Program-made: the position numbers and the translations under genes
Notes under the pieces: generated by a model
Database searches by the model: none
Told to the model about the DNA's origin: nothing
The model's input: the letters and a program-made list of their open reading frames with translations, nothing else
Origin: Desmodesmus armatus
Lineage: Eukaryota; Chlorophyta; Chlorophyceae; Sphaeropleales; Scenedesmaceae
DNA length: 64,000 nt
Direction: 5' to 3'
Assembly (NCBI GenBank): GCA_007449985.2
Contig: VIIQ02000120.1
Location: 218,010 to 282,009, forward strand
Part shown: in pieces, positions 36,093-64,000 of the stretch
Layout of the letters: every line of letters starts with the position of its first letter
Numbering within the stretch: position 1 is the stretch's first letter

Positions 36093-38786
36093 TTACATGT
36101 ACGTAGCTGTGACTGCTGCCCCCTCGAACCTGCTGTACCGTGTGATGCTGGGTGTGAGGTGTCCCCCCTGGTTGATCAGCTCCTGCAGGCTGACCACACG
36201 CATCACAAGCTTGGACAACTCGTGGTCACGACGGCGCAGCATGGAGCGCAACACGGTGGCCCTGTGGACAGACAACAACGGGGGGGGGGGCGATACATCA
36301 TGACAGCAGGTTGTCACGCTGACTCAGCATGGACAGAAGCAGGGTGCCTGCAGTCGAACACACGGGGGCGCCGGGGGGGGGGGGGGAGAGTATTGGCAAG
36401 GAAAATAGTTAGGGCACCTAGTCAAGGCAGGTTGGCCTGGTTGATCAGCTCCTGCAGGCTGACCACCCGCATCACCAGCTTAGAGAGCTCGTGGTCACGC
36501 CGACGCAGCATGGAGCGAAGCACGGTGGCCCTGTATGCAGAGGTACGAAGGGGTGAGGTGAGTCAACACATGTGAGTGACAGTGTCAGGCCAGCTTTGAC
36601 ATGACGAGGCAGCAAGGAGCGCAGCATGGTGGCCCCGAAGGCAGAAAACATGAGGGTCGGGGGGGGGGGGGTACGTGTGAGTGGTGAACATGGCCCCCCT
36701 GGTTGATCAGCTCCTGCAGGCTGACCACACGCATCACAAGCTTGGACAAGCCGTGGTCACGACGACACAGCATCGAGCGAAGGGCGGCAATGAACACAGT
36801 TGAAAATTGGGTGGATGGGTGGGGTGGGAGGTGAATCTGGGCACAACGTATCACAGGCTGACCACCCGCATCACAAGCTTGGACAGCTCGTGGTCACGCC
36901 GACGCAGCATCGAGCGAAGCAGCGTGGCCCTACAGTCAGGAAACATGAGGGGAGTGTCGATACATGTGAGTGAACGCTGTCACAGCGAGCTGACACGACG
37001 ACGCAGCATGGAAGGAAGCAGGGCGAGCCCTTTAGCTGCAAGTGTTGACACTACTACTCCCTTCCATTCCTTCTGCCTGCCCTCCACCCTCCCGTCTAAG
37101 AATCACAGAGGTCCCACTCACTCTTTGCGGGACTTCATCCACAGTGCCAGACACACCACAGCAGCAGCACTGCTCAGCAGCAGCCGCCAGTCACCAGCAG
37201 CAGCAGCAGCGGCTGCTGCCAGGCCTCCAGACTCCTTGGCTGACAGCTGCAGGGCACGCAGGGCCGCTGCTGCACGCGACACACAAGCCGCCTGGCTGTC
37301 ACGCCCAGTCTGTAGGGGGGGGGGGGGGGTACAGGAGAGAGAGGGGGGGCAGAAAGGGTTTGGATGAGGGAAGAACGCGTCAGCAAGTGCTACAAGATTG
37401 TGTGTGTGTGGGGGGGGGGGGGTGACATCGACAAGGGGGGAGGGGGGGGGGGCGACACGGGGTGGCTGCAGGGCGCGCAGGGCTGCTGCTGCACGGCACG
37501 CACAGGCCGCCTGACCGTCGCGCCCGGTCTGTGTATGGAGGGGGGTAGAGGGGACGGTATGGGTGGGAAGGCCAACATGGTTGAGGCGAAGAAATAGGGT
37601 GTCGGCAAGGACAGGGGGAGAAGCGACAGGAACAGCTGCAAGGAACGCAGGGCCGCTGCTGCACTGAACAGGCTGCCTGACTGTCACGCCCGGTCTGTAT
37701 GTGGAGACGGGGGTGTGGTGGGGCGCGGGAGGGGGTGGCAGGGATTGGGTGAAGCAAGGCAAGAGGGTGCGAGTGACAAGGGGTAGGCACGAGAGGGAGA
37801 GGGCTAGGCGACAAAACGAGGATAGGACAGGTTACAATTGCAGGCTGCTGCCAGGCCTGCACCCACCTACACCAGTGCTGTCAATGACTCCACAATCCAG
37901 GCCCTCAGGTCACCCGCCAGAGACAGCAGACCAATCCCCACCTCTCGCCCCCACGCAGACACCCCGCCCTACCAACTTGACCCCAACACCCCTACCTCCC
38001 CCTCCACGCCCCCACCCTGCACCCCACCCACCTGCACCAATGCTGCCAGTGACTCCACAATCCAGGCCCTCAGATCACCCGCCAGAGACAGCAGACCACC
38101 AGACAGCAGCCCCAATGCCTCCTCAGCCTCACACACAACCTCATCTGCAGCGTCACCCACTGCTGCCACTGCTGCCGCGTCACTGCTGCCACCAGCCGCC
38201 GCCTCGCCGGCAGCAGTGCCGTCTGCTGCTGCTGCTGCTGGTGACGCCGGCCGCACAGGGCTGCTGCTGCTGCTGCCTGCATCCTCTGCAGCAGCAGCAG
38301 CCGCCGCTGCTGCCAGCATAACTGGGTGACCTAATATACTTGCAGCGAGCTCGTCCCTTGGAGTGACATCAGACCCGCATTCGCTTCCTGGGTCGGTCAT
38401 TCCTCCCTCAAAGGGAGAAACAGCCCCAGACAGACCCCCTGAAGCCGCAGCAGCACCCATTGGGGTAGTAACCCCCGTGCAGGGGGTTGCAGAGACCCCC
38501 CGAGGGGTGGCGGCTCGCCCTGCTGCTGCCGCTGCTGCTGCTACAGCCTCTGGATCTGCCTCGAAGCTGTAGCGGCCGCTGCTGCTGGCAGCTTTGACTG
38601 ATGACCCCGTGACACCATGTGCCACTCATCGTCGGTCACACTGAGGCAGCGCTCACTCCCCACACGGGAGTGAGACAGGGGTGAGAGGCCAGGAGGAGTG
38701 ACCATGGTGTGACCTGTGGTTGTGACCACACCTGCTGCTACTGCTGCTGCTGCGGAGCCTGGTACTGTCAGCATGGGGGTCTCAAC

Positions 38787-38824
<38 letters not shown>

Positions 38825-38892
38825 TTGGGGGTGTGAGGGAGGCAATGCTGTGTGTGAGGGCATCTGACACTGCATCAGCAGTGCTGTTGGCA

Positions 38893-38930
<38 letters not shown>

Positions 38931-40455
38931 GGGGCTGTCAATTGTGCCTGCAGCAAAACATGGCAGCAGGATGCAGCGCACACAGCAAGCTATGAAATCC
39001 AAGCAGCCGGAGTAACATAATGCAGGCTTGAAGTTTGAACACAGGCGGCGACCTGCCCACAACTACCAGTGACGCCTTTGGCCAGACCAGCTCACCCCCC
39101 AAACCCCCTGTGGCCCCCATCAGATCAGATGCTGCCCCTCAACCTCCACTGAATGCGCACCCCCCCCTGGCCTTGCCCCCCCCCCCCCCCCCCCGGATGT
39201 GTAGCAACAAAAATCATGTGACCTCCCGCCCCTCTCCAAAGATGCACTGCGGCCCAAAGCCATTCAGTCCTGCCGCTCACCTTCCATTGACCCCACACTC
39301 CCAGTGTTGCCAGCCCCATGTGGCCCTCCCGCCTCCCGAATCTTATGCCCCCTCCCCTTCAACCTCCACCTCCAGAAACCCACTGTGGCCACAGCAAAAC
39401 AACTCTCCCCCACACCTCTAAGACCCCCCCCCAAAAAAAACCCACCCATCCTGGCCCAAAGGAAACATCACTGCTCCTCACCTTCCACAGATCCCACACT
39501 CTCAGTGGATTGCCTCAGTGTGAGCTCACTGTGCATGCTGTCAGTGGCAGCATCAGCATCAGCAGCATCAGCACTGCCCTGCTGCAGAATCAAGTCATAG
39601 CAGGCATAGCCCCCCCCCCCCCCCCCCCCCCCCTCGCCAAAGACCCACTCAACCCCCAGTCAGTGCAGCATTGCCCTTACCTTCCACAGATCCCACACTC
39701 CCAGTGGACTGCCTCAGTGTGAGCTCACTGTGCATGCTGTCAGTGGCAGCATCAGCAGCATCAGCAGCGGCGGCCTCAGCACTGCCTTGCTGCTGCAGGG
39801 TTACGTCATCACCATCACGCTGTGGGGTTACGTCATCACGCTGTGGGGTTACGTCATCTTCGCCGCCTGCAGCGGCTGTGGGGGATAGCCTGGCCACCAG
39901 CAGCTGCTGCTGGGCACCTGGGAGCAGCGAGGCGGGGAGCACGCACAGCAGCAGTGTGTTTGTCAGCTCTTTGTCAGCTCTTTGTATGGGGTTGGGGAGC
40001 TGTCTCCACTCAGCATTGGTGAACAATAAGGGACTGGGCTCTGACATGATCCACTCGCTCCCACAGAACAAGCAACAGTCCCCACCCCCCCTCCCATGAT
40101 CGTCCATGAGTCCTGACTTCAACACACATTCGACACACACATCAAAATGAAAGGAGCTGTCCCCAATGCTGCTGCTGCTGCTGCTGTTGTGTGGCCTCAC
40201 CTGCTGCATCTGCTGCTGCTGGCTGTAGCTGCTGCTGCAGTTCCAATTGCAGCTTCACCAGCACTGACTCCATCTGGCCTTGCTCCTGCTGCTCCTGCAT
40301 AACAAGGGGCGCAACAGTCAACATGGGGGCAGAGGCAGGCGTTGTGAAATCTGTATGGCTGATGGTGTGGCTTGAACGCATGCAACAGCATGTCTGGGTA
40401 TGTTTGTGGAGGGGAGGGTGTGTGTGTGGTGTGGTAGAGGGGTTGTTGTTTTGCA
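36093..40455 (-). CDS. Uncharacterised membrane-anchored protein gene with duplicated exon edges
   Basis: I do not recognise the family. Reading leftward: a Gln-rich coiled-coil piece (QEQGQMESVLVKLQLELQQQ, about 40300-40160); an exon with HFDVCVECVLKSG, DCCLFCGSEWIMSEP and TNAEWRQLPNPIQRADKEL ending in MHSELTLRQSTGSVGSVEG and a GTAAGG donor (about 40170-39678); an Ala-rich exon with DDEWHMVSR (about 38935-38600); a Ser/Ala-rich part ending LLSLAGDLRAWIVESLAAL (38625-38033); DSQAACVSRAAAALRALQ plus a C-terminal helix WRLLLSSAAAVVCLALWMK (about 37310-37118); and RSMLRRRDHELSKLVMRVVS (about 36930-36160). CVECV and CLFC may bind metal. The last exons would lie after the membrane helix. Exact splicing is uncertain because several exon ends occur two to four times. 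Confidence 0.5.
36160..38110 (-). repeat. Tandem copies of exon edges within introns
   Basis: Three coding segments of the minus-strand gene recur with their intron flanks. The segment encoding HELSKLVMRVVSLQELINQ occurs at about 36165-36262, 36435-36530 and 36693-36790, shortened at 36850-36932. DSQAACVSRAAAALRALQ occurs at 37240-37312, 37466-37532 and 37637-37700; the last copy has lost frame. LAGDLRAWIVESLAAL occurs at 38045-38100 and, as LTAL, at 37868-37915. Poly-G runs of 8-14 bases separate many copies. Confidence 0.85.
39285..39795 (-). repeat. Tandem copies of one exon end (SELTLRQSTGSVGSVEG)
   Basis: The exon end at 39678-39795, with its donor, is repeated at 39485-39595 (near-identical, coding RQSTESVGSVEG) and in part at 39285-39305. 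The spacing is about 190 bases. A 24-base poly-C run (39610-39633) and the 9-C/8-A run at 39424 lie in the intervening sequence. Confidence 0.85.
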
Positions 40456-40581
40456 ACGTGGCTTGAAACAGGGTATTGACACTGATGATGCTAGCGTGTG
40501 GAGGAGGGGGCGGGGAATCAAGCTGAGGCAGTCGGAGGCACAGTCCTGTGCAACAATCTTTCCAGCTTGGTCCTGCTGCTC

Positions 40582-40641
40582 CTGCAGTGTTGTGAAAGCT
40601 CTCGCTGATCGATCAGCGAGAGCTACTCCACAACACTGCAG
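40582..40641. repeat. 60-bp inverted repeat
   Basis: Outer arms CTGCAGTGTTGTG / CACAACACTGCAG enclose a perfect 28-bp palindrome (AGCTCTCGCTGATC and complement), with 2-4 unmatched bases between. It would fold into a strong hairpin or cruciform. Confidence 0.85.
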
Positions 40642-40904
40642 GGTGTTAAGAGGGCACAGACAACCGGTCAGGTTACATGCTGACGCTGGCAGCAGTAATG
40701 TGGCCAGTCAACGTGTGGAGTGCATGTGTGATATGGAGAGGGGGGGGGGGGGGGGGGGAGGAAGGGGGGGGGGGGGGGTACAGCACGGCCGCGGAGTGTG
40801 CCATGCAACAGCAGCACTCCCTGTTCGCATCATACACACCGTGCAGGTTTGTTGGGGGGGTCCCTTGTAATGAGGATGACGAAGGCCCCAGTTGGACTCA
40901 CCAT

Positions 40905-41305
40905 CCAACCAACTGCCAGGACACAAGCAGCCCCACTGCATGTGGTATGGTGAGCCAAGGTGATAGCCACACCAGGTACCAAATGCTGCGGGGCTGTACA
41001 AGTTCTGGCCAGAGGTCCAAATTGGCACAAAAATTGGCTCCAAAGTGGCCAAGATGGGGGGGGGGGGGGAGCGGCATGAGGCGCACAGAGCCAACCTACC
41101 GCCAGGACACAACAGCAGCGCTGCATGAGGTACAGGAACCATGGTGGTCAAGGAACCCGGTACAAACATGCTGCGGGGTTGTATAAGTACTGGCCTGAAA
41201 TCCCTATATGGCGAACATATCAGTTCCCATGTGGCAAAACAATTTTGATTCCAAGATGGAAAACATACTAAAAGGGGGGGGGCACGGGCGCACAGAGCCA
41301 AACAC
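40905..41305. repeat. Diverged direct repeat, two units of about 190 bp
   Basis: Both units share CAACC..CTGCCAGGACACAA (or CTACCGCCAGGACACAAC), CATGAGGTA/CATGTGGTA, ATGCTGCGGGG(C/T)TGTA, CTGGCC and a poly-G run followed by GGCGCACAGAGCCAA. No gene is visible; they may be further intron-type duplications of a gene edge. The region also has poly-G runs at 40741-40778. Confidence 0.6.
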
Positions 41306-41894
41306 TACATGACCCCCGTGGCACCCCAAAAACACAACGTGACCACTCGTGGTGTGCACCTGACAAAAACACTTGCCATTGCAGCTCCCAGCTGGGCCGC
41401 TGCGATTGAGTAGGGGACGCAGGGCACGGGCAAGGGGGGGGGGGGGGGGCGAGCACAGCCCTGAGCAACAGGGGAAGTAGGGGGCCGAGAAGTGTGGAGG
41501 ACTGCAAGTGGCTGGCAAATATGAAGTGTGAGAGCCATCCTGCTTCAATCGTGGTTGCTGCTGCAACTCATGTCGGCCACGCGCAAACGAACAGACAAAC
41601 TTGCATGCAACATTGTCAAGCGAAGTTGCAGCGCTCCGCTCAGGGTTGCAGCAACAGCACTGAAAAGCAGGATAAGCACCAAGCATGCCTTGAACCCAAC
41701 CACAATATGTTTGGCCATGTGCCAGTGCAACACGACACAAGCTCCAAACCTGGCAGCAGCACCTGCCAGCTGTGTGGTGCAGCAAGAGTCACGACAGTAG
41801 AGATTTGCATGTGCGTTAGCCATGCCAAGCTATGCTGGCCATGCACGGATATGCAACGCCACGCAGGTTGCACACCTAACAGCCGCATGAACAA

Positions 41895-42585
41895 ACCGTG
41901 TGGTGCAACCCACACCAAATGTTGACCAAGTGTGTCAGTGGGATCACGGAGTGACTGAATAAGTGTGGATTATGGCTCAATCAGACCCAGTCACTCAGTT
42001 GCACCCACTGACACACACTTGGTCAACATAAAGGCACCTGTCCGGCACTTTGCAGTGGCTGCCTTGAAAGGCAGGGATGGGACAAAAGACAGCATGGGCC
42101 AGGATGAGCACGCATGCATGGTGACGAAAGCACAAGGGAAACTGCGAGACCGCCCACAATGATGTCAAGAGAGTTGGCAGTATGGTGTGAGAGCTAATGG
42201 GAAAGAGGGGGGGGGGAGAGTTCGGCACAGCAGTCAACATCCTGCTCCACCAGCACCAGCATCAGCCAACACACCGTGTGGTGCAACCCACACCAAATGT
42301 TGACCGAGTGTGTCAGTGGGTTTCACGGAGTGACTGAGTGAATGTGGTTTGAACCCACGATCCACAAGCACACAGTCACCCATTGACACCCACTGCCACA
42401 CTTGATCAACATTTAGGCACCTGGGCGGCACTTCGCAGTGGCTGCTGTGCAGGCAAGGGTGGGAAAACATAACAGCTAGGGTGGGTAGGGATGAGCATGC
42501 ATGCATAGTGGCAACAGCACAATGAGAGGCTGGTGGGTAAGAGGGGGGAGGGGGGAAGAGTGTGGGCACAGCAGTCAACATCCCC
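41895..42585. repeat. Tandem duplication, two units of about 340-380 bp
   Basis: ACCGTGTGGTGCAACCCACACC starts the units at 41895 and 42273. Both continue with AAATGTTGACC(A/G)AGTGTGTCAGTGGG and CACGGAGTGACTGA, then a CAACAT.AGGCACCTG..CGGCACTT segment, and end in a G-rich run before GCACAGCAGTCAACATCC. Within each unit the TGTGTCAGTGG/CCACTGACACA motif recurs inverted. No coding function is seen. Confidence 0.8.
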
Positions 42586-43239
42586 GCTTAGGCAGCACCA
42601 GCAGCCAAATATTCAGCCAGTGGCCTTGTGGTTTACCGACAGATGCACATGCCTGGTTTCCAGGAAAGCAACCCGACAAAAGAATCTGCAGATGAATTCC
42701 ACAGCAGGCAGCTGCTGAGCCTGAAGCCTGGTGCTTGTGGTGCCACATAAAAACCTTGTGAACACAACCCCCTTCTGCAGAATTTTCGCAACCAGATGTC
42801 GTGCAAGGATGAACAGGGGTGTGTGACATTGCCCAGGGATGAGCCCCGGAAGCTGCTGGCTGTGCTGACTGCTGCTGACCACCCGCTGGCGCAGCACGCT
42901 GACTCAGTGAATCTACAGTTAAGGGGTTTTCAGGGCTGTACTGCTGTGAGGGTAGTCAGGGCTGGTGCTGCCATGAGAGCAGAAGATTATATATAATATA
43001 TTATACTAGCAGCAGCACTGCAGGAGCTGGGCCTGCTCTTTGATAACCTGGAGGCAGGGGGGGAGCAACAGATAGTATCAAAGTGTAGAGCAGCAGAGCA
43101 CCTTGCCTGACCGTACACAATTTGAGCACCTTACCCCCCCCCCCCCAAAAACACACTCACACACATGCCACAGCAGACCCCTTATATGCTGTCCACACCT
43201 GGCGGTGCGGAGGTTTGGGGGGCGGGGGGGGGGGCGCAA
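42586..43239. other. Unassigned stretch
   Basis: Contains a 66-codon plus-strand frame (42796-42996) reading LLAVLTAADHPLAQHADSVN that may be an exon but has no partner. An AT palindrome-like tract (ATTATATATAATATATTATA) lies at about 42986-43006. Confidence 0.3.
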
Positions 43240-44166
43240 CAGCAGATGACATATACAGGAGGTTGCAGAGTTTGAGACCTGGGGTTGGGAGTTACGGCGC
43301 CACAGTTACGGCGCATGACGATGAACATCGATGCAATGCGCCTATACTTCGACCTCCATACCTTAGGCAATCGTACCCTATGTGTTCACAAACTGCTCTT
43401 GCAACCCTGAGAGAGGGGGGGAGGGGGGGGGGGGGGGGGGAGGACACGCTGTTGACGCCTGCACCATCCCTTTGGGGCTTCACACCAAAAGCAACAGCTC
43501 CAGCTGCTGCAATCCACCATCATAGTATGATGTACATGACACTGGCTGGACATCAAAGCACACCTGATCAACTGGGAAGTCGTCCATACGCCTCGTCAGC
43601 AGGCGAGCAGGCTGAAGGGTGGTTGTGATGCAATTCCGCCTGTGGGACACAGACCACAGCGGAAAAAGTTGTAAGGCTGACATAAGATCCAAGTGACGGT
43701 CCAACATAGATGGTTGCTGCGTGGCATGGGCCAACCATCTCTACTGCCCCATCAATCTGCTGCAAGCGTTGCTGCTGCTACCCACCCCACCGTTCTCTTG
43801 TGACAAGCAAACCAGCCACTCTAGGGTTCAAAACATTATAACTATTACACAAGCTTCGCATCAAGGCGCACAGGCTCGCATTCCAGCCTGGGCGTCTGAG
43901 ATGCACACTCAGCACAGCATTTTCTGTTGCCACGAGCACGTAGTCAGAACGTAACAGCTATACGCCGACCATCACAGAAGCCTCACCTGAAGCCGGCTCC
44001 AGGAGAAGCAGGGATACCTCTCAGGGGCAGTCCGGTTGATGGCTGCGACGAGGCGTGGATACTTGATGGGAAACTCTGATCTGACCTTAAAGCACGCCCT
44101 TGATCGCTCTGAGTCCTCAGTCGGGGCAGCAGTGAACTGAGACCTGAGACCTGAGCTTGATTTCAT
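43240..44166 (-). CDS. Possible uncharacterised gene, three exon pieces
   Basis: I do not recognise it. Piece 1 (44166-43987) starts MKSSSGLRSQFTAAPTEDSE, continues RACFKVRSEFPIKYPRLVAA and ends at SWSRLQ before a GTGAGG donor. Piece 2 (about 43639-43490) follows a CCCACAG acceptor and reads RNCITTTLQPARLLTRRMDD, then FDVQPVSCTSYYDGGLQQ. Piece 3 (about 43380-43250) reads SKYRRIASMFIVMRRNCGAV. The phases of pieces 1 and 2 do not agree directly, so an exon is missing or the model is wrong. Confidence 0.35.
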
Positions 44167-44256
44167 CTGTCACTTTGTCTGCCTCATTTGCATGCCTCAC
44201 CCACATTATTGTGCTTTTTTACACTGATAGACCCATTCAAGATCATGTCGACCTAG

Positions 44257-44276
44257 CCCCCCCCCCCCCCCCCCCC

Positions 44277-44363
<87 letters not shown>
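44257..44363. repeat. Poly-C run and (CA)n microsatellite
   Basis: About 21 C residues (44257-44277), then CA dinucleotide repeats for about 80 bases to 44363. Confidence 0.95.
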
Positions 44364-44365
<2 letters not shown>

Positions 44366-44884
44366 CCAGCAAACACACCCCTCGTGCCCACTCAACATGC
44401 ATACACCCTGCATGTGGTATGCCTGGAAAATGTCCAAGGAATCCACTTATCCCAACAACAGCAGCTGCTGCAGGTTCTGACAGACAGCATGGTCTACTAG
44501 GTAAACCAAAAGCCACACCTAGCCTCGAGCGCTTTCTGCGCCAGCAACAGCGAGGAGCCACCCGTGCTATGCGATGAACTAGATTGGTTTAGTCCCTTGG
44601 CAGTCTATGCAACACACAATCTCCCTCGCCCTGCAGGACAACTTCTGGGGTAGGGGATTCCCCCCCCCCCCTCCCACACACACAATCAGTGGAAAGGAAC
44701 ACATCAATCGCCATAGCGGAGCCCAACGCTCAGGAAGCTCACGTGCATCACTGCTGCAGCCGTCATTCATGTACACCACCCGCTGTTACTAGCTGCCACT
44801 TGAACGCAACTTTGAGCAAACCCCAAAAGCACCACAACGCCCACGTTGGATCATGACCACCCCACTCAAAACAGTCAAACTTTT

Positions 44885-46720
44885 GGCATGTACTGTGCAT
44901 CTGCATACGGATCCTCCCCCGAGTCCGTGACAGCAATGTGCTCCAGCCGCTTGACAGCAGCTGCTGCGTCCAGGGCGACAGCAGGCTCTTGACCGCACAC
45001 ACTGCTGCAGCAGCCAATACATGCACACTACCCTTCAAGGGTTGGTGACCCTCATACAAGTCATGCTGCACATATCAAGCTTGCCAACTCCACTGAAGGC
45101 ACACCAGCGCAACAAGGACCAAAGTCACAAACCCAGTCAAACCGCTGGCATGTATTGCTCGTCTGCGTACGGGTCCTCCCCTGAGTCCGTAATGGCAATG
45201 TGCTCCAGCCGCTTGACAGCAGCTGCTGCGCCCTGCGGCGACAGCAGGTTCTTCACCGCAAACACTGCTGCATCAGTGCCAGCAGTGACGCCGCTGCTGG
45301 TGAGGTACATGCCGTCCTGCACCCAGCGTGCCTTGCGCACCCAGCTGACATTGCTGCTGAGGGAAGTGACCCAACCCCATGCGACCTTGTTGCTGGTGGC
45401 ACGCCTGCAAGGGTGTGTGTGTGTGGGGGGGGGGGCATTGGTCACCTACAACGGTAGTAGGCATGCCGTAACAGGGGAGGGGGGTCAAATTGATTGATGC
45501 TTGTGGTGTATTTTGTGGGTCGGTTGAATGTGGTGTGAGCTACTGGTGAGGTACACGCTGTCCTGCACCCAGCTGACACTGCTGCTGATGGAGGTGACCC
45601 AGCCCCACGCAACCTTGTTGCTGGTGGCACGCCTGCATGTGAAGCAGTGGTGGTGGTGGTGGTGCAACAGGCATGCCGTCACAGGGGAGGGGGTCAAAAA
45701 CACTGATGCTTGCGGTGTATTTTGTGGGTCGGTTGAGTGTGGTGTGAGCTACTGGTGAGGTACACGCTGTCCTGCACCCAGCTGACACTGCTGCTGATGG
45801 AAGTGACCCAGCCCCATGCGACCTTGTTGCTGGTGGCACGCCTGCAAGCGGGGGGGGGGGGGGGGGGGGGCGACAGACAGGATGGGGAAGGGGAGGGAGT
45901 TCAACATGTCAGCACACAACGTCATTGTGTGCTCAGCAGTTGCTGCTGCTGCTGCTGCTGCCGTTGCTGCTGCTGCTGCTTACAGTGGCAACCCAGCCCC
46001 TCAGGGGCAAGGGCCTTGCGACCTGGTTGCTGGTGGCATGCCTGCATAAAAGCAGCGGTGGCAGTGGTGGTGGGACATGCACGAGAGAGGACGGGGGCGG
46101 GCGCTGACTTCTCATCAACACACTCCAGTGTGAAACAGGAAGGTAGCACTGGCATGCCATGTAGGTGTGCCCGGCCTGCACATACATACACGCCCAACAG
46201 TGAGTCGCGCATTACACAGCGTTTTTTTACACCGCGTTACTACTACTACTCAGTAGTGGTCCACATGAGCTTGCAAGCCTGCAAAACAGCCCCACCCACC
46301 CGCCCCGCCAGTGCTAAACTTCAGCCCCCGGGGCTGAAGTTTAGCACTGGATGGCGGGTGGCTGGGGGCCCCAGCCACCCGCCATCCAGCACTCCCGCAG
46401 CTGCCAGCAGCGCCGAGCCAGGGCACACTGACATCACAACGGACAGATCCACCGCAAGGTCACACCAGCCTTGGTCTTGGCCACCATGCTGTGCACCGTC
46501 ACGGTGCTTGAGCCCCGCACTGATTGAAGGGGTGGGGTGTGAATATCCCCCCCCCCCCCCCGCTTACCCAATGGCGCCAACTGGCAACATTTGGTGACCC
46601 CAAAAAAGTTGCTGCAGAAATTTCTCACCCAGACACCCCGCTTGAATGACACGGCCCCGCGTCCACCTGCCGTCCAGCACTCCGGCGGCTGCCAGCAGTG
46701 CGACCCAGCGGTGGTCCAGT
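44885..46720 (-). repeat. Exon-edge copies around exon 3 and in intron 2 of the DJ-1/PfpI gene
   Basis: The start of exon 3 with its acceptor (ATSNKVAWGWVTS) is repeated. The true exon begins at 45404 and copies begin at 45632, 45841 and, degenerate, 46041 (spacing 228, 209 and 200). The two nearest copies share a deletion of the RKARWV region. The end of exon 2 with its donor (ALLAAAGVLDGR) is repeated with ends at 46667 and about 46380, the true end being 46794. Past the stop codon, the end of exon 3 (AAVKRLEHIAVTDSGEDPYA) recurs at about 45010-44885 with a one-base frame loss. Confidence 0.9.
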
Positions 46721-47704
46721 TGCATTGTACGGCCACAAAATAACCCCACTCAAACGCACTGCCAGAGCTCAAGTTGACCCCCCACCCACCCACCTGCTAT
46801 CCAGCACTCCTGCGGCTGCCAGCAGTGCCGACCCAGTGCACACCGACATCACCAGGGACAGGCCAGCAGCAGGGTCACACCAGCCCCTGATGTAGCTCAG
46901 CAGCACTTCGTTCTTGACCCCCTGCCTTGTGCCAATGCCACCAGGTACTAGCAGCCAGTCCAAGGAGCCCTTCTGAGGGGGCAGGTTTGCGAAGCTGTGT
47001 TTGGCAAGCATCGTCATTGTGGCTGCAGGGCGGTATGGAATGAAAGGGGGCAGGGGTAGGGATGCATCACCATGACAATCACCATGTTTGTCCAGCAGGT
47101 TCAAACGGCACATGTGAACCCACCCACACCGTACCCTCAGCCCCCCCCCCCCCCCCCCCCCGCGCGGGATGCCGACACCATGTCACATGATTTATGATGT
47201 ATACATCATCGCTCCCAGAGTGAGCCCCCCCCCCCCCCCCCCCCCCCCCCCGGGCTCAACTGAGGTCATGCGCGCCGCTGGGCCTTGCCCAGATGATGAT
47301 GCTGGGCCTTGCCCAGATGATGATTTATGATCCCAAAGGCAGCTGCTCACCGCTGACAAACCTGACTGCCCTTTCACAGAGTTGACAGGGTGTCTTTCCC
47401 TCAGGGTGACTGACTTTGGGACTCCTAGGCCCCTCAGCCTTGCCTGTTTGCTATGTTGGACAGTGCGCGACTGTTCTGCTACCTGGCTCCAACACCTACC
47501 TGTTGTGCTTGTGACGGGCCCTGCTGCCTGTGCGATGTACACCACGCTAACATCTGTCCCTTCTGAGGTCTGTGGCACCGAACCAAAGATGCTGACTGGA
47601 CCGACAACGTCTAGGGGCTCATAGCCCTCAAACAGCAGCACCCCCACTGTTATGCTGCGTTTGTTAGACGTAGCAGGTGTACCGGCAGAGGCTGCATCGC
47701 TCAT
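45137..47704 (-). CDS. DJ-1/PfpI family protein
   Basis: Three exons, 47704-47500, 47022-46794 and 45404-45137, splice in matching phase to exactly 233 residues, the normal size for the family. The N-terminus has the Rossmann-like start TVGVLLFEGYEPLDVVGP (residues 19-36). Exon 2 has LDWLLVPGGIGTRQG and the nucleophile elbow SVCTGSALLAAAGVLDSR with the expected cysteine at residue 130. Exon 3 has RATSNKVAWGWVTSLSSNVS, then KARWVQDGMYLTSSGVTAGTDA and an acidic end GEDPYADEQYMPAV. The layout is that of the isonitrile-hydratase/AraC-regulator-like branch of the superfamily, here without a DNA-binding domain; the substrate is unknown and it may act in stress response or as a hydrolase/lyase. Intron 2 is about 1.4 kb and filled with extra copies of both flanking exon edges. 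These are left out of the model because skipping them keeps frame and family alignment. Confidence 0.85.
46308..46389. repeat. Two adjoining 43-bp perfect palindromes
   Basis: 46308-46350 has 21-base arms around one C (arm CCAGTGCTAAACTTCAG..). 46347-46389 has 21-base arms around one G (arm CTGGATGGCGGGTGGCTGG..). They share 4 bases. The second palindrome contains a copy of the exon 2 end and donor of the DJ-1/PfpI gene, so an inverted copy of that edge must have been created beside it. Confidence 0.9.
47142..47251. repeat. Two long poly-C runs
   Basis: About 20 C (47142-47161) and about 27 C (47225-47251), in the first intron of the DJ-1/PfpI gene. On the transcribed strand these are poly-G, able to form quadruplexes. 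Lengths are likely unreliable. Confidence 0.85.
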
Positions 47705-48261
47705 TGGTTGTCTAGAAGCCGAGGAGCGTGGGGGTGGGGGTCACCTGGGTGGGGGCACCAGGGTGGTGTGAAAGGGGGAGACTGAAGCAGAGCGGGCTGT
47801 GACATAGGGAACTGCGCTTTTGCGCACTTGCCCCCTTCAGTGGCATCTGTTCAACAGACCAAGGGCCTTTTTGTGGCATGGGAGCTCAACCGTCAGTTGT
47901 GACAGGTTGATCACGTGAGGGCATGTGGATCGCAACAGATGCGAGGACTTCCTCAGCAAGGTCGTTTGTGAACAGCCTGATGCATCACAGCAGTCTCGAG
48001 CGATCAAGCGTGTGCGTTCTCTGCAGAAACAGACGCAAACACGGCGTCATCAGTTCTTTCAAGTTGATCAAGTGCCTTATATACATCTGGTATACGTATT
48101 GATTGCCCCAGCAACCCCACAGGGGTGTCAGCAGCCTCGTGATGCAGAGCATGAGATGTGGTCACGCTGCCCTTGCGTGGCCGACACCTGGTGTATCGCA
48201 AACCCAGCAGGCCCTCCCAGCCAGGTTGTCACTGTTTTCTCTACATGGTGGTCAGCCCAGC
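47705..48261. other. Divergent intergenic region
   Basis: About 550 bases between the start of the DJ-1/PfpI gene (-) and the next plus-strand gene. A TATA-like ATATACATC lies near 48079. A 68-codon open frame here could also be an upstream exon, but nothing supports it. Confidence 0.3.
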
Positions 48262-55325: not shown

Positions 55326-57666
55326 ATGCAGCAGCAGCCAGGCTTGCCTCACCTGCCAGATGCAGCAGTCATCTGCATCCTGAGCCACATCCCACTCAAG
55401 CAGCGGCTGCAACTGGCACTCACATGTCAATCATGGGCAGCAGCTGCTGTGATGGCGTCGACCAGCAGCACACATGTGACTCTGTCTCAGTCCCCAGCAC
55501 GTGCAAACAAGAAGGGCTTTGAGTTGTGGCTGGAGCGCTGTGCTGATCTCATCCATCACTTGACAGCATGCTCCAGCCTAGATGGTGAATTTGGCATGAA
55601 GGCCAAAGCGTTCCTGCAGCTGCCTTGCCACAAGCTCACTCAGCTAGTCAGCCTGAGCCTGCAGGATGTTTCACTGGACATGCGCCTGCCCAGCACCAGC
55701 ACGCGCACTGGCAAAAAGGGCCTCAACGCCGTGAACAGCAGCAGCCGGAGCAAGCATGGCGCCATCAACCAGCATGCAGCGGCTGGCCTCCTGCCATGCC
55801 TGCAGAAACTGGAGCTGGTCAACTGCGACGTCCTCATGCACCAGATGGAGCAGCTTTCCTGCAGCAGCAGCCTCACTTGCCTGACCCTGCAGCAGGTGCG
55901 GCTGTGCCCCAACAGCAAGACCATCGACATGAAGTCCAGACGGGCGTTTTTCGACGCGCGCCGCCTGCGCAAGGCGTTCACACCGCTGCTGACATCCGTC
56001 CCACCAGGCTTGGCCAGCCTCTCACTGGACAAAGAAGAGTACGTGTCTTTGTGGCTCTCCAAGAATTCAAGCAGGACAGAACCCTCATCTGCACCCAGCA
56101 GCATGCAGCGCCTGCAGCACCTCACCCTGCGCAACATCGACATGGCACCTGTCTTTGAGCTCCTGCCTGCCTCCCTTACCGCCCTAGAGCTGCACAGGTG
56201 CAGCGGGATGTATGCCATCCCCAAGGAGTCGACAGCCCAGCTCGGCAACCTGGAGCGGCTGCATCTGGAAGATTTATCCCTGGCTCCCAGCTTGCTGCTC
56301 GGCTTCCCCCTGCTGCAGCACCTTGTGCTGAGATCAGTCATGCCGCTGGTATTCCTGGCAACAGCAGATTCAAACAGCGTGCTGACCTCCGTGATGAATG
56401 CCTCCAAGCAGCGCAGGCCAAACCTGCACGGCATGCTGAGCGCTATCGGACAGATGACACAGCTGCAGCACCTGGAGTGGATCACAAGCTCGTCCGATGA
56501 GTACGCTTCGTTCCAAGGGGTACCCGTCAACATGTTCACTGCGCTGACGGCATCCACTCAGCTGACAGCGCTGCGCATGGAAGCAGCAGCAAGGCCCACC
56601 TACCGCCAGTTTCAGGCAGAGCCACTTGCGCTGCCACAGGGCGCGTGGAAACACATGCTGCCCACAGGCAAGGTCATGCCCCAGCTGCGTGTTCTGCAGC
56701 TGGCAGGTGCTGTCTGCAAGGCCCTGCCTCCGAGTAAATTTGGTAACACCCACCGTCAAGTTGCCGCAACGGGAGGAGCGGCAGTTGATGACTCACACCG
56801 GATGCTGACAGCTTCAGCACGCATCGATGCCGCCACGATTGGCCGCATTTCACGCAGCTGCCCCGCGCTGCAGGTGTGCCCCAGGGGAGCCAGCTGGGCT
56901 GTGAGTGCCATTGCCTTCGCCCTCGTACATGCATGTGATGAGCCGTCCTCAATGGGCGTGAGGCCAAAAAGAGAACACCTATGGCGTCACAGTACAAGGG
57001 GGTGTACTGATTATTTCTGTCTGTCTTTACTGCAGGAGGCCACCCTGCACTACGTCCTGCAGGATGCAGCTGCTGTCAACAGCCTTGCACAGCTCAGCAC
57101 CCTGACATCCCTCAGCATCGCAGGTCACGTGTGTGACGATGAAGCTGCAGCGGCAGTGGCGAGGCTCATTCGCCTACGCAGCCTACGCTGGGAGCGCAGC
57201 CGCTGCAGGGACGTTCATGCCAGTGTAACAGTGTCGGGTCTACTGCACTTACGGCTCTGCGTGCGCTGACATCGCTCACTCTGGAGGGCTGGCGTTGTGG
57301 TATTCAGGGGGGGGGTGGAGTCATCGGGTGTTGGCTATGGTGTAGCTGACCATGATGGCTGCATCACATTGGCAGCATCGCCATGGGTGAGTGCGGCTGC
57401 GAATCTTTGGAGTAAGTCAGTTTGTGGTGCATGTCCTCTCTTGCCGGCAAGGCATGACAACTGTGCAGGACAGCTCATCTGTAGCATGACAGGTGCGAAT
57501 GCATCCACCGAACTTGCTGTTGGTTGGCGTATGGCATCCTTCGTACTTTGCATTCACACTACTGTAGGACCAATCTGATGCACAGGGTGATGCTCTCTGC
57601 TTGTTTTCTGTGCAGGACGACGTTCCAGAAGTGTGGCACCAGCTGCAGCAGATCTGCAGGAAATGA
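55326..57666 (+). CDS. F-box/LRR protein, long form with vestigial tail exon
   Basis: Exon 1 is 55326-56873 (GCTGCAG|GTGTGC), intron 56874-57035, exon 2 from 57036, phase 0. The start ATG at 55326 opens into an F-box-like segment (LPHLPDAAVICILSHIPLKQ, then LALTCQSWAAAA). More than 500 residues of LRRs follow (LPCLQKLELVNCDVLM, MQRLQHLTLRNIDMAPV, LERLHLEDLSLAPSLL, LNSLAQLSTLTSLSIAG). The frame as written stops at 57269; a one-base shift near 57235 would continue as STALTALRALTSLTLEGW, which fits the LRR pattern. A last exon at 57616-57666 (GTGCAG acceptor) encodes DDVPEVWHQLQQICRK and stop, clearly the PDVWLQLLERC module of the shorter family without the Gln-rich coil. It is the same family at greater distance; probably an SCF substrate receptor by inference. 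Confidence 0.65.
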
Positions 57667-58434
57667 CAACCATCGGCGTTCATGAGTGGCCACTGGCAGA
57701 GTGTGACGGCTGCAAGCAGACTATGCAGTTGCTGACCTGAAGCTATTGGCGGCACCAAACTACTGGGCTATAGCATGTGTACATGCGTGTCACATGCAGC
57801 GCGGTACCTGTGTCCAGGGTGTTATAAGTTTTCACCAGCCGGGTGCTGACTGTTAGCACACGGATGTGCACATGGCAGGTTGTTGACTAGCATGTGGGCT
57901 TTTTACCTTTTGAATCCAGCGCTCTGAATCCAGCGCTTGCAGCTGCATACGCATGCCTGCATCATGTGTTCAACAGTCTGCCGCAAGCTGTGGCGGTGGG
58001 CACGGTTGTGATCTGTTTGTCAACTCTCCGATTGGATCCTCAGTGCTTTGTTCCTTCTGGTGCATTCTGCCATTTCCGTGATGTCAGGGAATGGCTGGCA
58101 TGAGCTTTTGAGCTTCATGTGTAACTTTGATGTTATTTGTCAACGGTGCCTTTCCTGTCAGAGTGAGTCAATTGCTGATGGTTTGGTGACGAAGTACATG
58201 GAGGATTGATCATTGATCAGCATGAGTCAGGCATGGCTTCAAAAAAGTCAACAGTCTATTGCCCAAGTCTATGCGTGCCCTGCCAGCACTCAAGGCGCAA
58301 CACTGCATACTGGCGATGCTGCAAACCTGGGCGTCAGCGGCCATATCACCGAGTAAAAATTGCCACACCCGTGGCGATTCAGCACCCGGCCCTGCTGCTG
58401 CTATTGCTGATAAATCTGCCCTGTCATCACACTC
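57667..58434. other. Convergent intergenic region, no gene seen
   Basis: About 770 bases between the 3' ends of the F-box/LRR gene (+) and the DUF89 gene (-). A direct 12-base repeat (GAATCCAGCGCT) occurs at about 57911 and 57926. Confidence 0.4.
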
Positions 58435-61400
58435 CTAATGCCGCATGCCTCCACCGCTGCTGTCCCCACAGCCCCGTTGGAAGCTGCACATGCAGTCGTA
58501 CAGGCTGCCCCCAAACAGCTTGACAGCCAGCCGCTCTGTCTTGATCATCGCCAGCTTGAGTGTGTCACACTTGAAGCGCGTGTTCAGGTTGGTGTGGATG
58601 GCGCGACCCATGCCCTCAATGACCTGCGCACAGAAGTGGCAGCAGAGGGGTGGTGAGGGTGGTGGTGGTGGTGCGGACGCAGTGAGCCTTTGTCAACTCA
58701 TCGCAACGACAACCAAACCAACTTGCGCTGACCCACCCCCATCGCCGACTGCCTGCAGAAGTAGCAGCATAGCAATGAGACTCTGTCAATACTTGCAGTG
58801 TGCGAGTTCACTCTGGCAACCCTGGCCCCTATCAACACTTGACATACAACTTCATGTCTCTCACCCCCCCCCCCCCCAAATCGTATCAGCCACCTGCCCC
58901 CCGCCTTGTTGCCCCATACTGCTCATTGCTCCCCACCACCCAAACTCTAGCCCTACTTCAACACAACTACTGCCCCCTACTTCAACACAACTACTGCCAA
59001 TGGTGAAACCCCCGACACCCAACCCACCAGCAGGTCCATTTCTGTCAACAGCACCAACCACCTGCCCCGCCCCTCTCTTCTGTTCCTCCTGTGCTCGTCC
59101 CACTTCATCCACCGCAACTCCAGCCCCATGTCTACACAACAAGCTCCCATGAAACCCTTGACACCCAGCCCAACCCACCAGCAGGTCGACTCCCACTGTA
59201 GCATCGGCCAGCGCAGCCGGCACCCTACTGAGGTCAAGGCAGGGTGAGCCACTGCCGTTGCCCAACACAAACAGCTTCGGCTCCACACCACGCCCCTGTG
59301 AGGGACCAGACGGCGGCGCAGCAGCAGCAGCGTCTTCCTCCGAGCTCTCCTCTGTCACCTCCTCCTGGCCGCCATCGCTGCCGCTGCTGCCATTGCTGCC
59401 GCCATTGCTGCCGCCATTGCTGCCGGCGGCTGTGTTACCAGACAGCGCACTCAACCCCTGCTGCCGCTGCTGCTGCTGCGGTGGCAGCAGCCGTGGCAGC
59501 AGCCCCTGCTGCTGCTGCTGGTGAGCTGCTGCCCAGTGTGGATCCTCCCCACTATCCGCACCCTCTAGGGAACTCAGCGGACTACCAAAGGCAGTAACCG
59601 GCCCAAACCCGGCCCACCCAGGACCTGGTGGGCCAGGCTGGCTGGCCCTGCAAGTGACACCACTGCTGCCGCCGGCGGCTGTGGCAGCAGTAGCGGCAGC
59701 AGTAGCATTGCTGCCACTGCTGCCGCCGGTGGCTGTGGCAGCAGTAGCATTGCCGCCGCTGGATGCAGCAGCGGCTGCGAGTGACTGGAGGTCTGAGTGG
59801 CTGGACTGCCGCTGCTTGAGGCCGGGGTAGGGTGGGATGGTGGGACCCCCGGTGACACTGCTGCCTCCCCGCCTGTTGGGCAGCTCAAAGGACTGTGCTG
59901 CTGCTCGGCCCGCCTTGATGATGGGGCACAGCTCTCCTGCTGCTGACAGCAGACTGGGAAGGAGGGAGGGACGGTGGAGGGGGGTGGGGTGAGGGGGGGG
60001 GGGGGGGGGGGAGGGGTAGATTGGGAGTAGGGGGTGGACAGGCTGGCAGGCAGGACAAAGTATGGGCAGATACATGGACCAATGCCTGCACCTTATGGAT
60101 AACCAATCAACTTGAAGATACAAGAGTCGCCTGACTTGCAGCGACCCATAGGCACAACGGCATTTACTGGTCCTAGCTCACCTCCTGAGCTCTGCTGCAG
60201 TGATGTCATTGATTGCCGGCAAGCTGTTAGCTACCATCACCACCTCACAGCCCGGCCCAGTTAGCAATTGGAGGGGTGGTAGGATGGCAGGAGGGCAACA
60301 TGAGCCCCCAGGGCAAACACCCACACCTTCTCTCCACCCAACAAAGAAAACTCGAGGCTCGAGGGCGACTCACTTTCTGAGCTCAGCTGCAGTAATGTCA
60401 TTGATTGCCGGCAGGCTGTTAGCTACCATCACCACCTCACAGCCCAGCCCAGTTAGCAATTGGAGGGGTGGTAGAATGGCAGGAGGGAAAACAAGAGCCC
60501 CGAGGGCAAACACCCACACCTTCATTCCACCCATCAAAGAAAACTCGAGGCTTGAGGCCGACTCACCCCCTAAGCTCAGCGGCGGTGATGTCATTGATTG
60601 CCGGCAGGCTGTTAGCCACCATCACCACCTCACACCCCAGACAAGTGTGCACATGCAGCCCAATCCTTACAGGAAGTGTGCGTGGGGTGGGGTGGGGGTG
60701 GGTGGGGTGGGGGGACCAATGAGCATTCATAGAGGCCATCAAAACAACCCAGCCTGCAGTACACCCATCCATATTCAAACCTCACTCACCTTCTGAGCTC
60801 AGCGGCGGTGATGTCATTGATAGCCGGCAGGCTGTTGGCCACCATCACCACCTCACAGCCCAGCCGCAGCATCTCCCGCACAAAGGGCAGAATGCCCAGC
60901 ACTATGTCGGCACCAGCATTGTCCACAAACACCATCACACGACGGAACGGCGGCCGGCGGCTGCTACTGCTGCTGCTGCTGTCACGGGCTGCAGTGTTTG
61001 TGGGCTGCTGGGGTGTTTGTGCGCTGCTGCTGGTGACAACATCACTACTGCTGCTGGTGGGGCCAGCAGCTGGAGCTGGACTGTGTGCTGCTGTCCCTGC
61101 TGCTGTTTCTGCTACTGTTTCATGTGCAATCCTGAATGGACTGATGTCTTCACTCCTGGGCGCCTCCCCAGCAAGCTGCTGCTGCTGCTGCTGGAGGCTC
61201 ATCCCCTGCAGCTGCTGCTGGGCGGCATACACCCCACTGGCAGATGCTGCCGCTGCTGCCATCACCTGGATGCCCCTCCAGGGACAACCCCTGACGGCTG
61301 CAAGCTGCTGCTGCTGCTGCTGGCGCCAGCAACAATGCTGCCGCCACTGCTGCCGCCGCAGCCGCCGCTGCTGCTGCTGTTGGTGCCGTACACTCGAGCT

Positions 61401-61466
61401 GCAAACTCGTCATAGTCATCCACACGCCATGGGCGGCGACTCAACCGCTGCCGAGCCTGAACACAT

Positions 61467-61497
<31 letters not shown>

Positions 61498-62509
61498 AGT
61501 TGCAAATTTGAAGTGCGTAAGTCATCCGTGTACGCTGTGTGCCTGCCAAGGTGCTGTAGCGTACCATAAGGCCTTGCTTCTTAGTGACACCAACAGCACC
61601 ACAGCAGCTGGTACTTTACACCAACAGCAGTGCAGCAGCTAGTAGCGACCCTACAAAAAAGCACAGCAGGTACCTCACCTCTGCAAACATATCCAGGATA
61701 GTACCGTTTGTGTACAGCTCCACACACGCCTTGGCTCCCCAGTCAAATATGTTGCCGGCTAGGATGCCCTGTAACAGGACACAAGGGGCGACAGGTGTCT
61801 GCATCAAAGTAAAGTATGTTGCTGTTGTGTACAGCACGCACGCCCAACAGGATGTTGGCACGCATCAGACTGACATGTACTGTACGGTATCGTACTGTAT
61901 TGCACCTTGACATCTATATTGTGTGCTGTACTGAAGCATGCATATGTATAGTGCAGTACAGTGCAGTACATACGATCAGAATGGCCTCCGCCAGCGACCT
62001 GACAGCTTCATGCTGGTGCTCACACATACAGTAAATGCAAAGATGGCAGATAGGAAAAGGTGAATTGCCAAGTGATTGAGGCTGTGTCTTGCTCAGCCCC
62101 CACCTGCACGAGTGACAGCAGTCTCTCCCGTGGCTCCATTGCATCCAGCTCAGCCAGCAGGTCAGGAAGAACCTGGAAAACAACAGCAGCGACAAAGCAG
62201 ACCACACTGCATCATCAATCAATAAAAAGTAACACAACAGCTACCGGGTACAGGGCAACTTATCAGACACATCCAGCTCAGCCAGCAGGCCAGGGAGCAT
62301 TCCTGACTAAACCTGGCGAAACGTGGAGCCCTCGCGTCCTGAGGCTTGTATCCTGCACACCAAACCCCCTACCTGCAGTGCCAGGTCGTTTTCCTTGTCC
62401 TTGTCCAGCCTGTACACGTCGCTGAAACCAACCCCCCCCTGAGAAGCCTCTCAGACAAGAGCACGGGGGCAGGGGCAGGGGCAGGAAGGAGGGGGGACAG
62501 GGGCGGCGG

Positions 62510-62549
<40 letters not shown>

Positions 62550-64000
62550 CGCTTCCAAAGCCACCCTGGTTACGTCAGATGCAGTACCCCAGCACAAGCA
62601 GCCACAAAAAAAGTGATATCCACCACCTGCAGTGCCAGGTCGTTTTCTTGTCCTTGTCCAGCCTGTAGACGTCGCTGAAGCCAAACTCCCTGAGGCACTC
62701 CTCACGCATCTCAAACAGGTCCGACAGACCAAGCTTGCCATACGCACCAGGGTCCTGGACACAGACAGGGATGTGATGTAAAAGGCGCAGCACAGATATG
62801 CATCAGTGCTGATGGGGTATTCACTTGTGCCACACAGGGCGAATGCATGCCTTTCGTGCTCAATGCTGTCATGATATCAGCAATCAAAACCCACACCCCA
62901 CCCTGGGCTATCGACCCCATCGGTCAGCACGGTCAGCACCAGCAGTTGAATTAAGGTTGTTTGGTTCCCGGCTCACCTGCCGCAGCTTTTGTATGTGGGC
63001 GCTGAAGGCCCGCGCAAATGCCGCTGCACGCCTCACTGCAGGCTGACCACCCCCCTCACTCTTGATGGCCTTCTCAACCACCGTGGGCACCTGAGGAGCA
63101 GCAACAGCAGCAGCGACAACAACAACAGCGACGGCAACAGCGACGGCACCTTCACTGTCTTGAACCAGCTGGCATGTCCAATCCCCACCATCTCCCTGCA
63201 GAACGCAGCTCAGGTCTGACGCTTACACATACATGTCTTTGCCAGAACCCTGACCAGACGCCCAATCACCCTGTCCCCCAATTGTCAAACAGCCACCCTC
63301 CCAACAAGAATCGAGCCCCATCCAAAAAACTGACCTGCTGCTCCAGCGATGATCAGGCAGATGTTTCTAGCGCGAGCAGGCATCCAGCTGTGCCCTTATA
63401 CTAGATCCGGTTCAAATTTGACAGAGGCAACAACGCAATTGTGATTGAGCTTTTGGCCCCCAGAGACCCCCCCTAACCTGGTCCTCCAGCACCCCCAGCA
63501 GCCAGTTGTACTCCACATCGTCTGTGTTGATGTCAATGGTGTTGGGATGGTAGCTGCAGGGTGGTACAGGGGTGGCAGGCAAGGCGGCAGCAGATACAAT
63601 CAGCACAAACAGCTGTGCCACACATCACGTTTCACTCCCAGATGTCAATGGTGTTGGGGTGGTAGCTGCAGGGTGGGGTGGCAAGACAGGAGGTACAAGG
63701 AACACAACAGCGGTGTCACACAAACCACGTTGAGTATGGAGACGACTTTGATCTCCAGTCTTGCTGACTCTGTTGAGCATGTGCGGGTTGCACACAGTAC
63801 TACCCAGTAAGCTAGATGTCACAATGTAGTGTATCGGAAGCACTTGCCACGTCAAGGGGAGCGCCCCTCTACCCAGCAGCAACCCTCAAACAACAGCGCT
63901 CCTCCCTGACCACAGCGGCAGCCACCCGCCCGCCTAACCACCCCACACTCACCCACTTCGACCCCCCCCCCCCTGTGCGTTTACGCCCCCCCCCCCCCCC
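58435..64000 (-). CDS. DUF89-domain (PANK4-type phosphatase) gene, 3' part
   Basis: The gene continues past the right edge. Exons, 5' to 3': 63553-63478, 63090-62977, 62754-62627, 62172-62104, 61768-61679, about 61456-60790, 59953-59179 and 58623-58435, mostly phase 0. Motifs in order match the DUF89/ARMT1-like metal-dependent phosphatase at the C-terminus of eukaryotic PANK4 and plant PANK2: MREECLREFGFSDVYRLDKD, LLAELDAMEPRERLLSLVQ, GILAGNIFDWGAKACVELY, SRRPWRVDDYDEF, VMVFVDNAGADIVLGILPF, MVANSLPAINDITAAELR, LFVLGNGSGSPCLDLSRV, VIEGMGRAIHTNLNTRFKCD and FGGSLYDCMC. DN in VFVDNAGAD and D in INDIT are the expected metal ligands. In PANK4 this domain hydrolyses 4'-phosphopantetheine and related damaged forms. 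Whether a kinase domain precedes it cannot be seen. Large Gln/Ser/Ala insertions interrupt exons 6 and 7. Exon 3 is one base short (128 instead of 129), and exon 6 also changes frame near 61263. Confidence 0.8.
60185..60865 (-). repeat. Four tandem copies of one DUF89 exon end
   Basis: The true exon end (GCEVVMVANSLPAINDITAAEL, donor at 60789) is followed in the intron by three more copies at about 60565-60637, 60375-60450 and 60190-60265. All encode MVANSLPAINDITAAELR, spaced about 185-225 bases. The two furthest copies also share about 110 bases of flanking sequence (CAATTGGAGGGGTGGTAG, CAAACACCCACACCTTC). Confidence 0.95.
62265..62430 (-). repeat. Copies of two flanking exon edges in one DUF89 intron
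   Basis: Between exons 62754-62627 and 62172-62104 lie a copy of the upstream exon's end (62372-62424, FSDVYRLDKDKENDLALQ) and a partial copy of the downstream exon's start (62268-62300, LPGLLAELD). A further copy of an exon start (YHPNTIDI) lies at 63637-63663, upstream of the exon at 63553. Confidence 0.85.
62511..62549. repeat. 39-base poly-G run
   Basis: The longest homopolymer in the window, in an intron of the DUF89 gene between an exon and its edge copy. Confidence 0.9.

Follow-up and report, generated by a model that had tools for sequence, protein, structure and literature searches.

Tandem exon duplication and mutually exclusive exons are characterized by a coding-like duplicate that lies next to its parent exon and differs from it at silent positions. 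Here we describe a 64,000-nucleotide window of the green alga Desmodesmus armatus (GenBank assembly GCA_007449985.2, contig VIIQ02000120.1, positions 218,010 to 282,009) in which introns of a DJ-1/PfpI gene, an ARMT1-like (DUF89) gene and an uncharacterized gene at 36–40 kb contain direct copies of the exon edges that flank them. New introns are known to arise by tandem genomic duplication (PMC3443670, citing Gao & Lynch 2009 and Hellsten 2011), and the copies resemble that process in being local duplications of exon sequence with splice sites, tolerated through splicing. They also share with the small tandem duplications at DNA breaks described in PMC8355091 a short, local, direct and possibly break-derived character, and with introner elements (PMC9860276) the alteration of introns in many genes of one genome.

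Our sample comprised 304 kb, made up of the 64-kb window and 24 ten-kb pieces (labelled L0xx) from the same assembly (115.8 Mb, 831 contigs). Exons were modelled with a two-strand gene-finding hidden Markov model (HMM) trained on the window and 20 of the ten-kb pieces; all exons are predictions made without RNA support, and the model labelled some of the copies as exons. Piece L001 was excluded from analysis.

Frequency, spacing and extent of exon-edge copies

We scanned 546 intron-facing exon edges across the 304 kb, under relaxed settings, for a copy within 900 nucleotides (nt) on the intron side, distinguishing junction-spanning from exon-internal copies and requiring a donor-side match to start at least 25 nt inside the exon, with an end cut-off at −6. 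Junction-spanning copies were found beside 36 of these edges (21 donor, 15 acceptor), a count that still includes a coding tandem array in L017 and an exact repeat on the plus strand of the window, and a further 9 edges had an exon-internal copy only. The same search beside a different, randomly chosen edge returned any copy at 1/546 edges, and inverted copies were found at 0/546. With the L017 array excluded, junction copies occurred in 10 of the 24 ten-kb pieces, so that the recurrence across the genome anticipated by a preliminary description of this window was borne out. A strict exon set gave any local match at 66/299 edges, many of them repeats inside exons. In the held-out pieces L022–L025, strict settings yielded a junction copy at 2/55 edges, a rate below that of the first sample; both copies end near the junction, the acceptor-side one starting at −3 (84%) and the donor-side one ending at +16 (only 76%). 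A whole-genome search with two exon edges, in which only the best candidates were scored, matched only the edges themselves and their local copies, and thus no paralogous or dispersed source was found for these two.

For the tallies of spacing, end position and G-runs we excluded the L017 array and the plus-strand exact repeat, leaving 31 edges, of which 20 are donors and 11 acceptors, and 41 copies. Offsets ranged from 112 to 621 nt (median 211, interquartile range 160–266), wider than the 185–230 bp first described, and because they are this broad the nucleosome-sized periodicity suggested at that time is unsupported. Spacers between exon and copy measured 54–554 nt in the 12 donor arrays examined. 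A minisatellite or tandem repeat array has a regular head-to-tail period; Tandem Repeats Finder (TRF) reported periods of 193 and 209 nt for the DUF89 and DJ-1 arrays and none for the window's remaining exon-edge sets. Introns modelled with a donor-side copy were not longer (median 218 nt, n = 14, versus 288 nt, n = 133), which lends no support to the earlier proposal that copying lengthens introns; this comparison is weak because the gene model sometimes calls copies exons.

Donor-side copies started 25–134 nt inside the exon, and 26 of 29 ended between −6 and +16 of the junction. In an ungapped, junction-anchored profile of 17 donor edges (the DJ-1 last-exon pair and the other DJ-1 donor edge being excluded), identity was 0.88 at −10 to 0, 0.75 at +2 to +6, 0.62 at +6 to +10, 0.39 at +10 to +15 and about 0.33 beyond, compared with 0.54, 0.42 and then 0.30–0.35 between unrelated donors at the same positions from +2. 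Acceptor-side copies (11 edges) reached 0.80–0.95 over the first 30 exon nt, 0.72 at −10 to 0, and 0.46 falling to 0.39 further out, and include intron sequence up to −60. Junction copies mostly share far less than their offset, with full units in a few arrays; duplication of whole splice-junction units, as first suggested, is seen in some arrays and not in others, and the shared piece is mostly exon. Comparison of the spacer beside the real junction with the sequence beside the copy, made for 30 copies, gave no homology at E < 0.1 in 13 and weak matches in 8. Among pairs at least 95% alike, 3/5 (L012, L016 and window 62371) lacked detectable spacer homology, which decay alone therefore hardly explains.

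Origin of the copies

Edges with copies were associated with poly-G runs. A coding-strand run of at least eight G lay within 200 nt of the donor at 13/20 edges with a copy and 15/236 without one (P = 8e-10), and the association held within strata of locus and strand (odds ratio 7.7, chi-square 10.6). A G-run of at least 7 separated exon from copy, or one copy from another, in 10 of the 12 donor arrays examined, and in 4 of the 12 a copy was 0–5 nt from a G-run. We rejected the idea that poly-G tails on sequencing reads produced the association, because outward tails do not predict the excess of coding-strand G-runs found at acceptor edges (3/11 versus 5/243), where C-runs showed no such excess (1/11 versus 15/243). 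Within modelled introns generally, coding-strand G-runs lay toward donors (24/58 in the first fifth) and C-runs toward acceptors (25/30 in the last two fifths), and the two co-occurred (P = 0.01), with possible pairing across introns.

Differences between donor-side copies and their exons were mostly silent. Counting one copy per edge (the most similar, with at least 7 whole codons) and leaving out the DJ-1 last-exon pair, 48 of 77 codon differences over 18 edges were silent, one L013 edge in this set being probably itself a copy. The expectation for a neutral copy of a constrained exon was 28.9–34.8, the range reflecting mutation bias (P of 0.001 or less in 2000 draws), and the implied omega of the copies was about 0.3. 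When intronic copies were compared among themselves, 30/60 variable sites were third positions (one L013 set entered twice). In 14 of 22 donor-side copies the donor scored no lower than the first-quartile value for predicted real donors; the donors of copies often differ from the real one yet score well, and one looks by eye like a GC donor. Acceptors at the 5' edge of donor-side copies were no better than chance, with 5/22 exceeding the 75th percentile for randomly drawn windows of intron, and extending the exon to the donor of the copy would keep the frame in only 7/29 copies (by offset, L017 excluded). Good donors, chance-level acceptors and silent bias together make many copies look like former or allelic exon ends, not alternative exons. 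Since a good donor is often kept, the decoy splice sites suggested by the preliminary description are plausible on sequence grounds.

Tentatively, and by a small margin, we favour an origin in which diverged versions of one boundary are joined out of register, frequently at G-runs, with the exon-proximal splice site kept; it explains why the likeness ends near the junction, why the differences are silent and why the donors of copies are distinct yet good. In this possible scenario two versions of an exon–intron boundary that had diverged beforehand, for example alleles, would be joined with a slight shift in register, often where a poly-G run lies just within the intron, so that the incoming version would carry tens of bases of exon end with its own donor, or an acceptor with exon start, into the intron. 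Splicing would stay with the junction next to the exon body; with that junction still in use, the protein would be unchanged and the copy would decay slowly, and later exchange between copies could build arrays. What we infer is that the source is inter-allelic, that G-runs play a part in breakage, and the order in which these events occurred.

Several results weigh against out-of-register joining. Four exons searched in the assembly had no second near-full-length match, two returning local copies only and the other two partial (70–74%) or short (77–91%) matches, so that no second haplotype was found in the assembly for these exons. Acceptor-side copies were near neutral (30/62 differences silent, P 0.12–0.43), and the third-position excess among intronic copies was confined to three arrays (24/34, compared with 6/26 in the remaining arrays). 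Clear spacer homology (E < 1e-4) was found in 9/30 copies, several of these matches being displaced or to the spacer of another copy, and 2/5 pairs at least 95% alike possessed it (L020 exon 7813 and window 63641). The arrays of DUF89 and DJ-1 and that of L020 exon 8886 contain repeated whole units, as tandem duplication predicts. Finally, among the 29 tandem and 77 dispersed local pairs in the 304 kb, 41 of the dispersed pairs overlapped predicted exons against a random mean of 34.6 (P = 0.07).

Some of these observations lend weight to ordinary short tandem duplication spanning the splice junction, seeded at G-runs; the duplications would be tolerated through retention of the outermost splice site, and the G-rich part of the intron would decay by slippage and indels to the point where the exon part alone can be recognized. 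Perfect or near-perfect local duplications exist, such as a 258-bp, 100% identical tandem duplication at L008 6107–6624, as do the 29 tandem and 77 dispersed local pairs; locality, orientation, G-run breakpoints and array structure would all be accounted for, as would the clear spacer homology in 9/30 copies, the whole units in some arrays and an exon overlap of dispersed pairs that is not significantly above random. Such duplication, however, predicts general intron homology, whereas the average likeness stops at the junction, also in the three 95% pairs without spacer homology, and it predicts neutral copies, whereas donor-side copies have too few replacement changes. The junction-bounded profile and the spacer test weaken simple tandem duplication as the full answer, and we rank this origin only marginally below out-of-register joining.

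It appears unlikely that donor-side copies are still used, serving in some transcripts as interchangeable, translated exon ends and hence kept coding. The omega of about 0.3 would be expected under such use, as would a copy in a CPSF73-like gene of L020 whose 25 compared codons show 7 silent differences and 0 replacements and which has, 8 nt upstream and in open frame, an acceptor-like TTGCAG. Against it, acceptors at 5' edges show no excess (5/22), a result on which we rejected the copies as alternative exons, and the frame is kept in 7/29 copies only. A related proposal resting on the same omega, and one that we consider equally improbable from the sequence, is that donor-side copies are reserve exon ends under coding selection and that introns would be partly built from spare, interchangeable termini placed by a splice-junction-directed process.

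An assembly artefact, in which diverged haplotype or strain versions of one boundary were placed end to end, would directly yield both the junction-bounded likeness and the silent differences, and an exact 2,140-bp repeat in the window (856–7258) and a one-base frame difference near 62,655 call for a check of the assembly. We nevertheless think an artefact improbable: the 304 kb contain zero N, the separation of exact 2.1-kb repeats suggests long reads, which would span the arrays, and one array holds up to four distinct intronic copies, some with homologous spacers. Least likely of all is copying directed by the splice site, in which, for instance, a fragment of nascent RNA or cDNA that stops at the 5' splice site would be used to repair a broken intron. 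Such copying would fit the narrow ends and variable starts of donor-side copies (26/29 at −6 to +16; 25–134 nt upstream), their position downstream in the same intron and a G-run link to DNA that may be prone to R-loops, but it leaves the silent bias and the distinct, well-scoring donors unexplained and sits poorly with acceptor-side copies reaching to −60 in the intron and clear spacer homology in 9/30 copies.

Exon-edge copies in individual genes

Self-BLAST and alignments confirmed direct copies in the introns of all three genes in which they had first been noticed. On the minus strand, the DJ-1 intron runs from the real donor-side exon end through two copies of it and three acceptor-side exon-start copies to the real exon start. 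The protein spliced through the exon-proximal edges aligned gap-free across the junction with four homologues, which supports the exon-proximal junction as the coding one; its best-scoring relative was that of the green alga Monoraphidium minutum (50% identity), with some metagenome fragments closer over part of the length. The shared deletions reported among copies proved to include an 18-nt in-frame deletion common to the acceptor-side copies at 45565–45673 and 45774–45870. The last-exon pair differs by 10 silent and 9 replacement changes. Strong inverted repeats (hairpins) lie in or near the same genes at 46290–46389, 40581–40642, 41919–42029 and 42295–42414, the last two being parts of one local duplicate pair.

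Coordinates of exon edges and their copies in the window (strand -, minus)
Feature	Position	Strand	Evidence and remarks
36–40 kb gene: at least 4 related exon-edge segments (about 36160–36248, 36436–36530, 36691–36782, 36854–36940)	36160..37023	-	pairwise identity 72–93%
36–40 kb gene: set of three related segments at offsets of 219 and 170	37243..37714	-	80–83% identity
36–40 kb gene: 74-nt segment and copy, offset 165	37860..38098	-	93%; match ends 29 nt inside predicted exon, exon-internal
36–40 kb gene: predicted exon edge (39697–39866) and copy, offset 200–208	39466..39793	-	87% over 129 nt
DJ-1 coding exon 3' edge and donor, taken as used	46785..46885	-	BLAST self-match; gap-free junction alignment to homologues
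DJ-1 intronic partial exon-edge copy and donor	46663..46708	-	91.5% over 47 nt to 46790–46836
DJ-1 intronic exon-edge copy	46370..46470	-	83% over 101 nt to 46785–46885
DJ-1 degenerate intronic acceptor and exon-start copy	46018..46081	-	81.5% over 65 nt to 45609–45673
DJ-1 intronic acceptor and exon-start copy	45774..45870	-	89.7% over 97 nt
DJ-1 intronic acceptor and exon-start copy	45565..45673	-	self-BLAST, alignment
DJ-1 next coding exon start and acceptor, taken as used	45337..45433	-	self-BLAST, alignments, homologues
DJ-1 downstream copy of last coding segment (45134–45276), 1-nt deletion	44872..45013	-	86% over 143 nt
ARMT1-like upstream intronic acceptor and exon-start copy (real edge within 63529–63624)	63641..63722	-	97% over 36 nt around junction; 75% over 96 nt
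ARMT1-like, another exon 3' edge	62625..62690	-	self-BLAST; one base shorter than its copy
Intronic copy of 62625–62690 and donor, adjoining coding-strand G-run	62371..62437	-	95% over 61 nt
ARMT1-like coding exon 3' edge and donor, taken as used	60785..60865	-	PF01937 match of joined upstream exon reaches its end; self-BLAST
ARMT1-like intronic copy 1 and donor	60562..60646	-	92.5%; 5 silent, 0 replacement in 24 codons
ARMT1-like intronic copy 2 and donor	60368..60449	-	91.5%; 6 silent, 0 replacement in 24 codons
ARMT1-like intronic copy 3 and donor	60177..60261	-	88.9%; 8 silent, 1 replacement in 24 codons

In the ARMT1-like gene the real last ~75 coding bases and their donor are followed downstream by three copies. 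At a second exon of this gene, the exon-proximal edge is one base short at about 62,655 and its intronic copy is in frame, reflecting either a sequencing error or a real lesion. Outside the window, the CPSF73-like gene of L020 (minus strand) carries exon-end copies at three exons, and one of its introns contains a copy of the exon end encoding HFHLDH. Here too, the product formed through the exon-proximal edge aligned gap-free across the junction, in this case with human CPSF73, supporting that edge as the coding junction.

Other repeats and scans were noted in the sample. The exact tandem repeat at window 856–7258 comprises about 3 copies, 100% identical, with coding-like, CAG-rich content, and L015 holds identical 81-bp segments 568 bp apart (4140–4220 and 4708–4788) with unrelated flanks. 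An Rfam scan of the window gave zero matches at the gathering score.

Implications and comparison with known systems

If the pattern is real, about 1 exon edge in 15 of the sample (36/546) is accompanied by an intronic copy that extends across the splice junction, and a single species would allow tests of how poly-G tracts, local rearrangement and the evolution of splice sites are connected. The pattern would also provide numerous naturally occurring pairs in which a real and a decoy splice site differ by a few bases, and would confound gene prediction, as it did where our HMM called copies exons. In the portions of the literature available, we found no description of a genome in which established introns often contain copies of the adjoining exon edges in association with G-runs.

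The copies differ from the described systems in the following respects. In the AGGT model, duplication of an exonic AGGT gives rise to a new intron between the two copies, whereas here an existing intron gains donor-side copies near its donor and acceptor-side copies near its acceptor. That model predicts that the end of the upstream exon is repeated at the intron's 3' end and the start of the downstream exon at its 5' end; the order in DJ-1, the gene compared, is the opposite. It also entails homology over the whole duplicated unit; average identity here is at background from about +10, and spacer homology is absent in 13/30 copies and clear in 9/30. The small duplications at breaks (PMC8355091) are tandem, whereas exon and copy lie 54–554 nt apart in the 12 donor arrays. 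Mutually exclusive exons have their own acceptor and donor in each copy; here one exon edge is copied, with a good donor in 14/22 copies and chance-level acceptors (5/22). Introner elements are one sequence family at many loci, whereas here each copy derives from its own exon, and the distinction drawn at the outset from such elements agrees with the genome-wide search, in which two edges matched only themselves and their local copies.

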